A DNA stretch of 41,423 bases from the NCBI GenBank assembly GCA_938084765.1, contig CALKFO010000019.1:1-41423 (forward strand). The letters are read 5' to 3'. Within the stretch, counting starts at the first letter, position 1; each line of letters starts with the position of its first letter. Under the pieces are notes generated by a model. That model was given only the letters and a program-made list of their open reading frames with translations. It made no database searches and was not told where the DNA came from. Below are positions 28,781-34,145 of the stretch, one piece after another. The translations under genes were made by a program, and so were the position numbers. The DNA is from Candidatus Bipolaricaulota bacterium. Lineage in GTDB: Bacteria > Bipolaricaulota > Bipolaricaulia > Bipolaricaulales > Bipolaricaulaceae.

Positions 28781-31717
28781 GTGCGGACCCGACTGGACGC
28801 GTACCTCGTGCGTGAGATCCTCCCGCCTTTTTTCTTGTCCTTGCTGGCCTTTTTGGTGTTCATCAGCCTGGAGCTCGTGCTTTCCCTTTCCGACGCGGTT
28901 TTCGCCCGCGGGGTTTCGGCTGCCGCGCTCCTGCGCCTTTTGAGCTTCAAACTCCCCTACATCCTGACCCTGGCCGCGCCGGCAGGTGCCCTCCTCGCCA
29001 CCTTCCTGGCCCTGGCCCGCTTGGCCTCGGATCGGGAGCTCCTGGCCTTGCAAGCCCTCGGTTATTCCCTGCGCCGCATCCTCCTCCCCTTCCTGGGGTT
29101 CGGCCTGAGCGTGAGCGTCCTGTGCCTGGTGTTTTCGGAGCTCGTCGTTCCCGAAGCCGAGGCTCTCTATCGCCGCGAACTTCTCGCCATCCTGTACCGC
29201 AGCCCCACGCCCATGGTCCAGGAAAACGTGTTCTTTCGGGGCCCTCAGGGCGAACTGTTTTACGTGGACCGCTACACCGGGGCGAAGGTGGAGGGCGTGG
29301 TGGTGTACGACCTCTCGGGACGCCTTTTCCCCAAGAGCGCCTTCCCGGCCGTGGTCACGGCGAGGGAGGGCGTGCTGGAGCGGGGGGAGCTTCGGCTTCG
29401 CGAGGGCCGGGTGCTCCAGTTCGGCGCCGCCGGCGAGCTCACGGAGATCCTGGGCTTTGGGGAGCTGCGCCTGGAGGTGGGGGAAAAGCTGGAGGAGGCC
29501 GTGTTGGGCGGGCGCACCCCCAGCGAGATGTCCGCCCGGGAGTTGCGGGAGCGCATCGACCTTCTGCGGCAAAGCGGACATGATGTGCGGCACCTTTGGG
29601 TGGAGTACCACGGGAAGCTGGCCATCGCCGGCGCGGCTTTCGTGTTCGTCCTGTTTGGGGCGCCGTTGGGGGTGGTTTTGGGTCGGCGGGGCCGGGCCAC
29701 GGGCATGGTGGTGGGGTTCCTCCTGGCGGCCGGAGCCCAGGCCCTGTTCCTTTGGGCCCGCACCCTCGCCCGCCGGGGCCTCCTGCCGCCCTTCCTCGGC
29801 GGCTGGCTTCCCCACCTCGTCCTGGGGGCCTTGGGCGCCCTGCTCTGGGCCGGCGCGGATCGGCTGCGCTTTCGCGGGAGCGTCCTTTTCCTCCTGTGGG
29901 CGCTGAGCGTTGGGGGGCTCGCCGCCCCACCCTTCACCGAGCTCGCCGCGGAGGAGTTGGTGGTGGAGGCGGAGGGCCGCCATTGGCGTGCCCACCAGGT
30001 CCGCCTCGTCTTGGGCAGCTACACCCTCCAGGCCCACAAGGCGGAGTTCCGGGAGGAAGGGGGCTGGACGCTCCAGGCCGAAGGGGCTCGGGTGGAAACC
30101 GACGAGGGCTGGGTGGAGGCCCAGATCCTGTGGAGCCAGCTCTCCCCATCCGGGGAGATCACCCGAGCTGAGCTCCGGCGCTTCCAGGGTCAGGCCCGCT
30201 TTCTTGGGCCGGAAAAACCCGAGCTCCTCTTCTTTTCCGCCGAGCAGGGCGTGGTGGACCTGGACCAAGGGGAGATCACCCGCCTGTGGGGTACCCAGGT
30301 TCTCTTCACCACCTGCCCTTGCGTGGAAGGTGCGCCTTACCTCGTGCGGGCCGAGGAGTTCCTCCTTCTGCCCGAGCGGTGGCTATTGGTGCGGAACTTG
30401 CGGGTGGATTCCTTCGGCTACCCTGTGGTTTGGCTTCCTTTCTACGCGGCCCGGCTCGGTGAGGAGGGCATCCCCTTCCTGCCGGAGGTAGGCCGCACGG
30501 GATTGGGCTGGTTCCTGCGCTGGTCCATCCCCTGGTCGCCCTGGGAAGGGGCGGTGGGGGCCCTGGTGCTGACCTGGTTCCCCGAAGCTGGCCAGATCCA
30601 GCCCGGTCTCTCTGCGGCCTGGGAGGCGGGAAGCTTTTCCCTGAGCGCGGACCAGGGGTTTTTGCGGGTGAGGGGCCGGGTGGGGGGCGAGCCTTGGCAG
30701 GGCCAGGCCCGCTGGCGCGCGAACACCCTAACCCTCGATCTTTCGGGAAAGGTCCAGGGCTGGGACGTGAGCATCAGCGCGGGCACCGTGGAAAGCGGGA
30801 CAGGCAGGTATGTGCGGCGGCCTGAGCTCGCCCTTTCCCGCGCCCTTTCGGCCTGGGAGGGGGAGCTGCGGGTTCGCTTGGGGATCGGGCAGTTTCAGGA
30901 AGAGGGGAGACAAAGCTGGCGGGTTGGTCTAGGACTGAGCTGGGCGAGGACGATGTCCCTGGGCTTGGCCCAGCTCCGCCTGGCCTGGGAGGCCGGGCTG
31001 GATCAGTACATGGGGGCTGAGCGTCTGTATCTTGCGGCCAACCCCAGTTGGGCTTGGGGTGGGATCTCGTTGTGGACCCAACAGCGCCTCACCCTCGGGC
31101 GCTCCCCGTTCACGTTCGACGCCCTGCCCACCCAAAGCCAGATCGGCCTCACCTTGGGCACCCGCAGCCGGGGGTGGACCCAAAAACTCAGCCTGGGCTG
31201 GGACCTGCTGGGCCCGGCGCCCCTCCCCGCCTCCTGGAGCTTGAGCGGGCCTAATCTATCCCTGCAGGTTTCGGTTCGCCTTTTCCCAACCCTGGGGGTC
31301 CAGGCCCGGGCGCAATGGCGCGGCCGGGGGCCCAACTGGCTGGTGGAGGCCAGCGGAAGCTATACGGGGACCTGGCAGGACGTGCTCCTGCGCGGGACCT
31401 TCTCCGGGGAAGGGACGGACCTGGCGTGGGGCCTCCGTCTTTCTCCCTGGCCGTTGGCGCTGCGCCGCCTTTACCTGGATGCCAAGGGAGCCATCAGCCC
31501 GGAGTGGTCTTGGAGCGCGGTTTTTGAATACGATCTGACCTTCCGGAGCGTGGTCCAGGCGGAGGTGGGCCTCTTTCGCACCTTTGCCGGATGCTTGCGG
31601 CTGGGTCTGCGCCTGGGCCTGGGCACCTTCCGGTTGAGCTTGGATGTCCCAGCCTTTCCCGCGTTTTCCGTGACGTTCGCGCCCTTGGACGAGGGGCTGC
31701 GGGTGGGCGGGCTATAA
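28781..31717 (+). CDS. Fusion protein: LptF/LptG (YjgP/YjgQ)-type permease (about aa 1-360) plus OstA/LptD-like domain and predicted beta-barrel (about aa 382-978)
   Basis: N-terminus 'RLDAYLVREILPPFFLSLLAFLVFISLELVLSLSDAV...ASDRELLALQALGYSLRRILLPFLGFG' with LptF/G topology. The ORF continues without a stop into 'ITRLWGTQVLFTTCPCVEGAPYLVRAEEFLLLPERWLLVRNLRVDSFGYPVVWLPFYAARL', an LptD signature, then long amphipathic beta-strand-like sequence. Confidence 0.88.
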   Translation: MRTRLDAYLVREILPPFFLSLLAFLVFISLELVLSLSDAVFARGVSAAALLRLLSFKLPYILTLAAPAGALLATFLALARLASDRELLALQALGYSLRRILLPFLGFGLSVSVLCLVFSELVVPEAEALYRRELLAILYRSPTPMVQENVFFRGPQGELFYVDRYTGAKVEGVVVYDLSGRLFPKSAFPAVVTAREGVLERGELRLREGRVLQFGAAGELTEILGFGELRLEVGEKLEEAVLGGRTPSEMSARELRERIDLLRQSGHDVRHLWVEYHGKLAIAGAAFVFVLFGAPLGVVLGRRGRATGMVVGFLLAAGAQALFLWARTLARRGLLPPFLGGWLPHLVLGALGALLWAGADRLRFRGSVLFLLWALSVGGLAAPPFTELAAEELVVEAEGRHWRAHQVRLVLGSYTLQAHKAEFREEGGWTLQAEGARVETDEGWVEAQILWSQLSPSGEITRAELRRFQGQARFLGPEKPELLFFSAEQGVVDLDQGEITRLWGTQVLFTTCPCVEGAPYLVRAEEFLLLPERWLLVRNLRVDSFGYPVVWLPFYAARLGEEGIPFLPEVGRTGLGWFLRWSIPWSPWEGAVGALVLTWFPEAGQIQPGLSAAWEAGSFSLSADQGFLRVRGRVGGEPWQGQARWRANTLTLDLSGKVQGWDVSISAGTVESGTGRYVRRPELALSRALSAWEGELRVRLGIGQFQEEGRQSWRVGLGLSWARTMSLGLAQLRLAWEAGLDQYMGAERLYLAANPSWAWGGISLWTQQRLTLGRSPFTFDALPTQSQIGLTLGTRSRGWTQKLSLGWDLLGPAPLPASWSLSGPNLSLQVSVRLFPTLGVQARAQWRGRGPNWLVEASGSYTGTWQDVLLRGTFSGEGTDLAWGLRLSPWPLALRRLYLDAKGAISPEWSWSAVFEYDLTFRSVVQAEVGLFRTFAGCLRLGLRLGLGTFRLSLDVPAFPAFSVTFAPLDEGLRVGGL

Positions 31718-33341: not shown

Positions 33342-34145
33342 ATGCGTGCCGTGCTCGTTTTCCTCTTGTCCCTAGGGGGGTGGGCCCAGGTGTGGGACCT
33401 CACCGCCATGGATTGGTCCTGGGATGGCGTCCACATGCTGATGGTGTCCCAGGGGCAGCTTTATGTGGGTCTGGCGCCGGAGGGTCGGGCCCTGCGGCTG
33501 CTGTATGTGGGCTTTCGCCTGGAATGGGCCCGCTTTGCTGGAAAAGATCACCTGGTGTTCTCCGCCCCCCTTGCGGAGGGAGGATGGGGCCTTTGGTGGG
33601 GCACCCTGGCTGAGGATTCCCCGGCCCTCCTCTACACCTCCTCCGCGCCCCTGCGATGGCCTACAGCCTCCTGGGACGGCACCCAGGTCGCCTTCGTGGA
33701 AGACTGGGATCGCTTGATGGTGCTGGATGTGCGGACGGGCGCAGTGGAGCTGGCCGTGGGCGGGGCTTGGCCCAAGGCCACCCCGGAGTTCACCCCCCAG
33801 GGCTTGGGCCTCCTCTTCGCGGGGCTGCTCCTCCACGAGGGCGAGGGAAGCTGGGACCTTTTTTATTACGACCTCCGCACCCGCGACCTGATTCAGCTCA
33901 CGGTGGATCCTTATTTTGACTGGTGTCCTCGCATCTCGCCCGATGGCCTTTGGGTGGCCTTCGTCTCCAACCGAGGTGGTGCGCCCGATATCTGGGTGTT
34001 GCCGCTCGGGGCCGGCGAGCCCTTCCCGGTGACCGCGGACCCCTGGGAGGACGCCTTTCCCGCCTGGTCTCCAGACGGGAGCGCCTTGAGCTACGCCTCC
34101 CGCCGGCCCCAGGGCTGGGTGTTCCTCGTGGTGGGCGCCTACTAA
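33342..34145 (+). CDS. Secreted TolB-like (PD40) beta-propeller protein
   Basis: Signal peptide, then repeats 'PRISPDGLWVAFVSNRGGAPDIWVLPLGAGEPFPVTADPWEDAFPAWSPDGSALSYASRR'. Confidence 0.82.
   Translation: MRAVLVFLLSLGGWAQVWDLTAMDWSWDGVHMLMVSQGQLYVGLAPEGRALRLLYVGFRLEWARFAGKDHLVFSAPLAEGGWGLWWGTLAEDSPALLYTSSAPLRWPTASWDGTQVAFVEDWDRLMVLDVRTGAVELAVGGAWPKATPEFTPQGLGLLFAGLLLHEGEGSWDLFYYDLRTRDLIQLTVDPYFDWCPRISPDGLWVAFVSNRGGAPDIWVLPLGAGEPFPVTADPWEDAFPAWSPDGSALSYASRRPQGWVFLVVGAY

Follow-up and report, generated by a model that had tools for sequence, protein, structure and literature searches.

A phylum-wide LptFG–LptD fusion in Bipolaricaulota with a candidate internal signal peptide at the junction

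The window, a 41,423-nucleotide stretch of a contig that belongs to Candidatus Bipolaricaulota/Acetothermia, contains a fused lptFG-lptD gene at positions 28781–31717. The gene and all of its parts lie on the forward strand. It starts with GTG and comprises 978 codons and a stop codon, and full-length homologous ORFs are present phylum-wide. The N-terminal LptF/LptG permease part (residues 1–357; 28781–29851) contains six transmembrane (TM) helices and a periplasmic β-taco. The permease is followed by a basic n-region or cytoplasmic loop (residues 358–366, GADRLRFRG; 29852–29878), recognized from the sequence and the alignments, and by a fast-evolving, length-variable h-region (residues 367–378, SVLFLLWALSVG; 29879–29914). 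In the subsequent c-region (29915–29926), the site GLA↓A is predicted to be recognized by signal peptidase I, with the cut between A381 and A382 (29923/29924). The mature LptD predicted from this site and from its LptD fold match consists of residues 382–978 (29924–31714) with the N-terminus APPFTELAAEEL. The peptide beginning at residue 382, the predicted mature N-terminus, is APPFTELAAEELVVEAEGR, and the tryptic peptide that spans the predicted cut is GSVLFLLWALSVGGLAAPPFTELAAEELVVEAEGR.

According to profile matches and structural modeling, the window ORF is an LptF/G permease followed by a predicted complete LptD consisting of a β-taco and a barrel. The PF03739 (LptF_LptG) profile covers residues 8–355 of the window protein (E=4.7e-78). 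Past residue 355, Pfam yields nothing reliable in the window protein, and the LptD_N and LptD profiles do not exceed the cut-off. LptD_N does exceed the cut-off in the LptD half of six phylum genomes, and where the gene is fused, the match immediately follows the junction. The separate LptD of genome G050 is also matched by Pfam, and the PF04453 match is weak in the split LptD. The AlphaFold model, which was generated with 61 phylum sequences, exhibits a mean pLDDT of 88 and a pTM of 0.53. In the model, six helices with the LptF/G β-taco, inserted between TM3 and TM4, are followed by a second β-taco or jellyroll (∼residues 387–510; 29939–30310) and a barrel of ∼26 strands (∼residues 520–966; 30338–31678). 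PF03968 matches the second β-taco in relatives. A Foldseek search matched the model both to LptG/LptF chains (6mjp_G, E=1.8e-14, TMt 0.82) and to full-length LptD structures (4q35_A, E=3.9e-22). An LptD-type conserved stretch, TTCPC...PVVWLPFY (residues 510–556; 30308–30448), contains the invariant or nearly invariant residues C512, C514, W551 and P553, and the alignment shows conservation of the CxC motif (C512 and C514) and C938 in the LptD half. LptE, the partner of LptD, is generally poorly conserved.

No LptB gene adjoins the lptFG-lptD fusion in the window. A CDP-alcohol phosphatidyltransferase gene (PF01066; 31728–32265, forward strand) begins ∼10 bases past the stop codon of the fusion, and the two genes possibly form an operon that includes an envelope-lipid enzyme. 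Farther downstream, a TolB-like PD40 repeat protein (33342–34145, forward strand) carries a signal peptide ending in GGWA↓QVWD, the usual cut-site form of the phylum.

The LptFG–LptD fusion characterizes nearly the whole phylum. LptF/G is present in 91 of 100 Bipolaricaulota genomes, nearly always as a single gene. Homologues of the fusion were located in contigs by an alignment-based scan; a scan with the single window protein gave nothing. At 83 of the 86 readable junctions, the frame continues beyond permease helix 6 into a hydrophobic segment. The three exceptions are the two genomes of family f5, which are truly split, and G077 (a single contig, 69% complete), where a stop 23 residues after helix 6 perhaps reflects a frameshift. 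Two further copies are interrupted, one by a frame break in the LptD half (L050 in G003) and one inside LptFG near residue 130 (L049 in G036), by frameshift, real decay or assembly error. Four genomes of family f2, genus g14 (G037, G039, G083 and G084; 87–93% complete), contain no LptF/G at all. Omp85 is kept in G037 and G039, the two of these genomes that were searched, which suggests a loss of the exporter.

The stop codon of LptFG is TAA in both f5 genomes, and the GTG start of LptD lies two bases downstream. An LptB-like ABC ATPase gene immediately precedes the split pair in this family (L038 and L045, reverse strand). The split LptD is homologous to the fused LptD halves (best phmmer E=6.6e-53). 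At its N-terminus, a short n-region that includes basic residues precedes a hydrophobic core; this stretch can be aligned with the fusion segment, and the alignment extends into the following LptD domain. The fusion segment thus occupies the place of a real N-terminal signal peptide in relatives. This alignment lends support to the proposal of the initial annotation that the segment derives from the N-terminal signal peptide of a formerly separate LptD. In the LptFG tree, the split f5 pair branches basally next to the fused clade, a position that fits a single fusion. The branch has a support of only 21 and long branches meet there, so the direction may instead have been fission in f5.

The signal-peptide-like segment that the initial annotation had noticed at the LptFG–LptD junction is located directly after helix 6 (WLPHLVLGALGALLWAGAD) in the translation from the GTG at 28781, with residues 361–393 (29861–29959) reading RLRFRGSVLFLLWALSVGGLAAPPFTELAAEEL. 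Residues 361–382, between the two halves, exhibit the anatomy of a Sec signal peptide of the signal peptidase I type, with a basic n-region, a hydrophobic core and the small residues G379 and A381 at positions −3 and −1. The GLA↓A site, which had been anticipated around residue 381, lies exactly there. A basic-then-hydrophobic segment is found at the junction in all 83 in-frame junctions examined. Its sequence has drifted far more than that of the permease helices. The mean pairwise identity of the segment core is 0.28 within the window's own family, f1, compared with 0.56–0.75 for TM1–TM6, and 0.24 in the other families, compared with 0.42–0.58. The segment is also variable in length (10–14 residues in f1 and 13–21 in the other families), whereas TM2–TM6 of f1 are invariant in length.

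The putative cleavage site was evaluated by a shuffle test. Two weight matrices for scoring signal peptidase I cleavage, one based on general knowledge and one derived from 21 phylum BamA signal peptides, had been dropped: they did not separate the segment cleanly from f1 helix 5, which likewise has small residues near its end and scored equal to the junction, and the BamA matrix was dominated by Q at +1. Because neither matrix was discriminating alone, they were replaced by a test in which the same residues of nonredundant junctions were shuffled. In the other families, where the test was anchored on the first polar residue, a small −3/−1 pair was observed in 22 of 36 junctions (10.4 expected). 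In f1, the pair was observed in 13 of 18 junctions (4.7 expected) under a site rule that was picked after the sequences had been viewed and that sets the anchor one position ahead of the first P or charge. None of 5000 shuffles reached the observed count in either set. The controls TM1, TM3 and TM5 mostly exhibited no excess, with the exception of TM3 of f1 (p=0.006).

The junction sites of the other families (AWA↓QEPP, GWA↓QELP, VRA↓QEMT, AFA↓QDEE and GMA↓QEEP) are similar in form to the signal peptides of BamA in the phylum (GWA↓QESL, GMA↓QETS and AWA↓QQPF). The f1 sites are the least canonical, with APPF rather than QE past the cut (GLA↓APPF). In the AlphaFold model of the window protein, residues 366–381 constitute the sole internal stretch with a pLDDT below 50, and a low-confidence stretch recurs at residues 391–405 in the model of a distant homologue. 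The low confidence may partly result from poor alignment of the variable segment. The evolutionary rate, the −3/−1 pattern, the BamA-like form and the model confidence favor a segment that behaves as a signal peptide and not as a seventh helix.

These sequence and model features point, with good probability, to a phylum-wide LptFG–LptD polyprotein that contains an internal signal peptide and that signal peptidase I most likely cleaves. Both termini of LptF/G are located in the cytoplasm, and LptD must therefore be re-exported. Helices 1–6 would be inserted like those of an ordinary LptF/G permease, which leaves the C-terminus in the cytoplasm. The next 20-odd residues, comprising the basic n-region, a 12–15-residue core and GLA↓A, would then act as an internal signal peptide that restarts translocation, so that the LptD half would be exported via Sec. 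Signal peptidase I would cleave between A381 and A382. LptFG, with the signal peptide retained at its C-terminus as a short tail, would form an inner-membrane homodimer with LptB, and the freed LptD would be delivered by BAM to the outer membrane, where the two products would serve in envelope-lipid export. Such a polyprotein could have originated from a separate lptD located 2 bp after lptFG, as in f5, through stop loss and a frame change with retention of the signal peptide. Omp85/BamA was found in 55 of 60 relatives.

Alternatively, the segment could be an uncleaved signal-anchor. It would then form a seventh TM helix with the LptD half in the periplasm, and a permanent contact site would arise where a single chain is embedded in both membranes. 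We consider this arrangement unlikely. Every homologue has a hydrophobic segment with in-to-out orientation, and the f1 sites, the least canonical ones, would suit an uncut chain. LptC consists of one TM helix followed by a β-taco. Pfam recognized no LptA in the phylum genomes except in the LptD part itself, and LptC was recognized in only 13 of 60 genomes, all outside f1, so that a short direct bridge is imaginable. A precedent for one chain that runs from the inner to the outer membrane also exists in Veillonella parvula, whose elongated MlaD has been described as a bridge that stays uncleaved and comprises an MCE domain and a ∼150-residue helical spacer (PMC10665443). Both proteins combine an inner-membrane part and an outer-membrane barrel in one polypeptide. 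Unlike MlaD, the Bipolaricaulota protein contains a signal peptide-like segment and lacks a periplasm-spanning spacer, with only ∼5 residues between the segment and the LptD β-taco in the AlphaFold model.

If the chain were uncut, the modeled β-taco would hang ∼5 residues off the inner membrane with nothing to cross the periplasm, and the single LptFG gene would imply a homodimer that tethers two barrels per transporter. Cutting would remove both the spacer problem and the two-barrel problem. Moreover, no other part is as variable as the segment, which also differs in length, unlike the packed TM1–TM6 helices; the small residues at −1 and −3 are kept, and several fused genomes have LptC as a separate gene. 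Of the two fates that the initial annotation had offered for the segment, cleavage that releases the LptD half is thus the predicted one, given the retained signal peptidase I-like sites and the drift of the hydrophobic part, and the extra anchoring helix is disfavored. It is likewise rather doubtful that at least some members of the phylum, with f1 as the best candidate, leave the segment uncut or cut it slowly, so that one chain is integral to both membranes and keeps them closely apposed as a minimal, LptA-free exporter of a non-lipid-A substrate.

Release of the LptD half near the junction by another protease, such as a site-2 or rhomboid-type protease, a DegP-like protease or signal peptide peptidase, is very unlikely. 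The search for signal peptidase I in the draft genome that contains the window (88% complete) gave no recognizable match. However, the enzyme was found in 7 of 7 genomes of the same genus and in 51 of 60 relatives, with a PTGSM.P box in those read, and the −3/−1 pattern is the one that is read by signal peptidase I. The signal peptidase I of the window's genus has a PDZ domain inserted between the serine box and the remaining catalytic domain (L207:312–1316, reverse strand), and PF10502 matches are split in many genomes.

Internal translation initiation, by which the same mRNA would yield LptD as a separate protein with its own N-terminal signal peptide, is scarcely credible. The split LptD of f5 has its GTG start at the same place, and the initial annotation had pointed to an in-frame TTG at about 29851 as well as to the lack of an ATG or GTG immediately before the segment. 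The codon table of the window ORF bears out the latter observation, with no in-frame ATG or GTG between codons 346 and 393. Position 29851 is not a codon start; the nearest in-frame start-like codon is the TTG of codon 351 (29831–29833), which has no SD-like sequence upstream and is thought to be unused. After the segment, in-frame start-like codons are observed at 29957 (TTG), 29960 (GTG) and 29963 (GTG). Among the homologues, start-like codons at the junction are scattered and are missing from 5 of 83, and an SD-like sequence is present in only 9 of 83; this lack of a conserved start with SD leaves initiation at the TTG unsupported. An assembly or annotation artefact that joined two genes, conceivable because most of the genomes are metagenome-assembled, is refuted by the recurrence of the fusion in independent assemblies from many projects, including the single-contig genomes G011 and G021.

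By analogy, the internal-signal-peptide polyprotein mechanism proposed here has a bacterial precedent, although in an unexpected machine. The FbcH protein of Bradyrhizobium japonicum, a cytochrome b-c1 precursor attributed to work by Thony-Meyer et al. (1989/1991), is reportedly cut by signal peptidase after synthesis. In FbcH, as in the window protein, one ORF encodes a polytopic inner-membrane protein and, after an internal signal peptide, an exported component of the same machine; for the LptFG–LptD fusion, the separate-gene state is also observed, in f5. The proteins are unrelated, and both FbcH products stay in the inner membrane, whereas the second product in Bipolaricaulota would be an outer-membrane β-barrel. 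The canonical Lpt system of E. coli and others (LptB2FG-C-A-DE) employs the same permease and translocon folds but encodes LptF, LptG and LptD as separate genes; in Bipolaricaulota, one LptF/G is fused to LptD, with no recognized LptA and no LpxC. The Lpt-like system of Borrelia likewise operates in a diderm that lacks LPS, but its Lpt proteins are encoded by six separate genes (PMC10353723). No published account was found of a single gene in which the inner-membrane ABC permease and the outer-membrane translocon of one machine are fused.

LpxC (PF03331) was absent from all 60 phylum genomes, including G000, and was found in four control genomes. Given the absence of LpxC, the exported lipid is probably not lipid-A LPS, as judged from gene content. 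In these 60 genomes, LptFG–LptD and Omp85 are nearly universal, and the Lpt system occurs without lipid A. No LPS genes were seen in Ca. Bipolaricaulis in an earlier study, which could not establish whether the envelope has one or two membranes (PMC6092417). LptD is reported as missing from atypical diderms in a survey without mention of Bipolaricaulota (PMC8871954). If cut, the fusion would be a rare cellular polyprotein in which an internal signal peptide routes the halves to two membranes with a fixed 1:1 synthesis; if not cut, it would be a two-membrane protein. Either way, the presence of LptD and BAM without LpxC makes the envelope type of Bipolaricaulota testable. Four members of the phylum (L156, L155, L204 and L185) are deposited as Thermotoga sp., Neomarinimicrobiota or Atribacteria.
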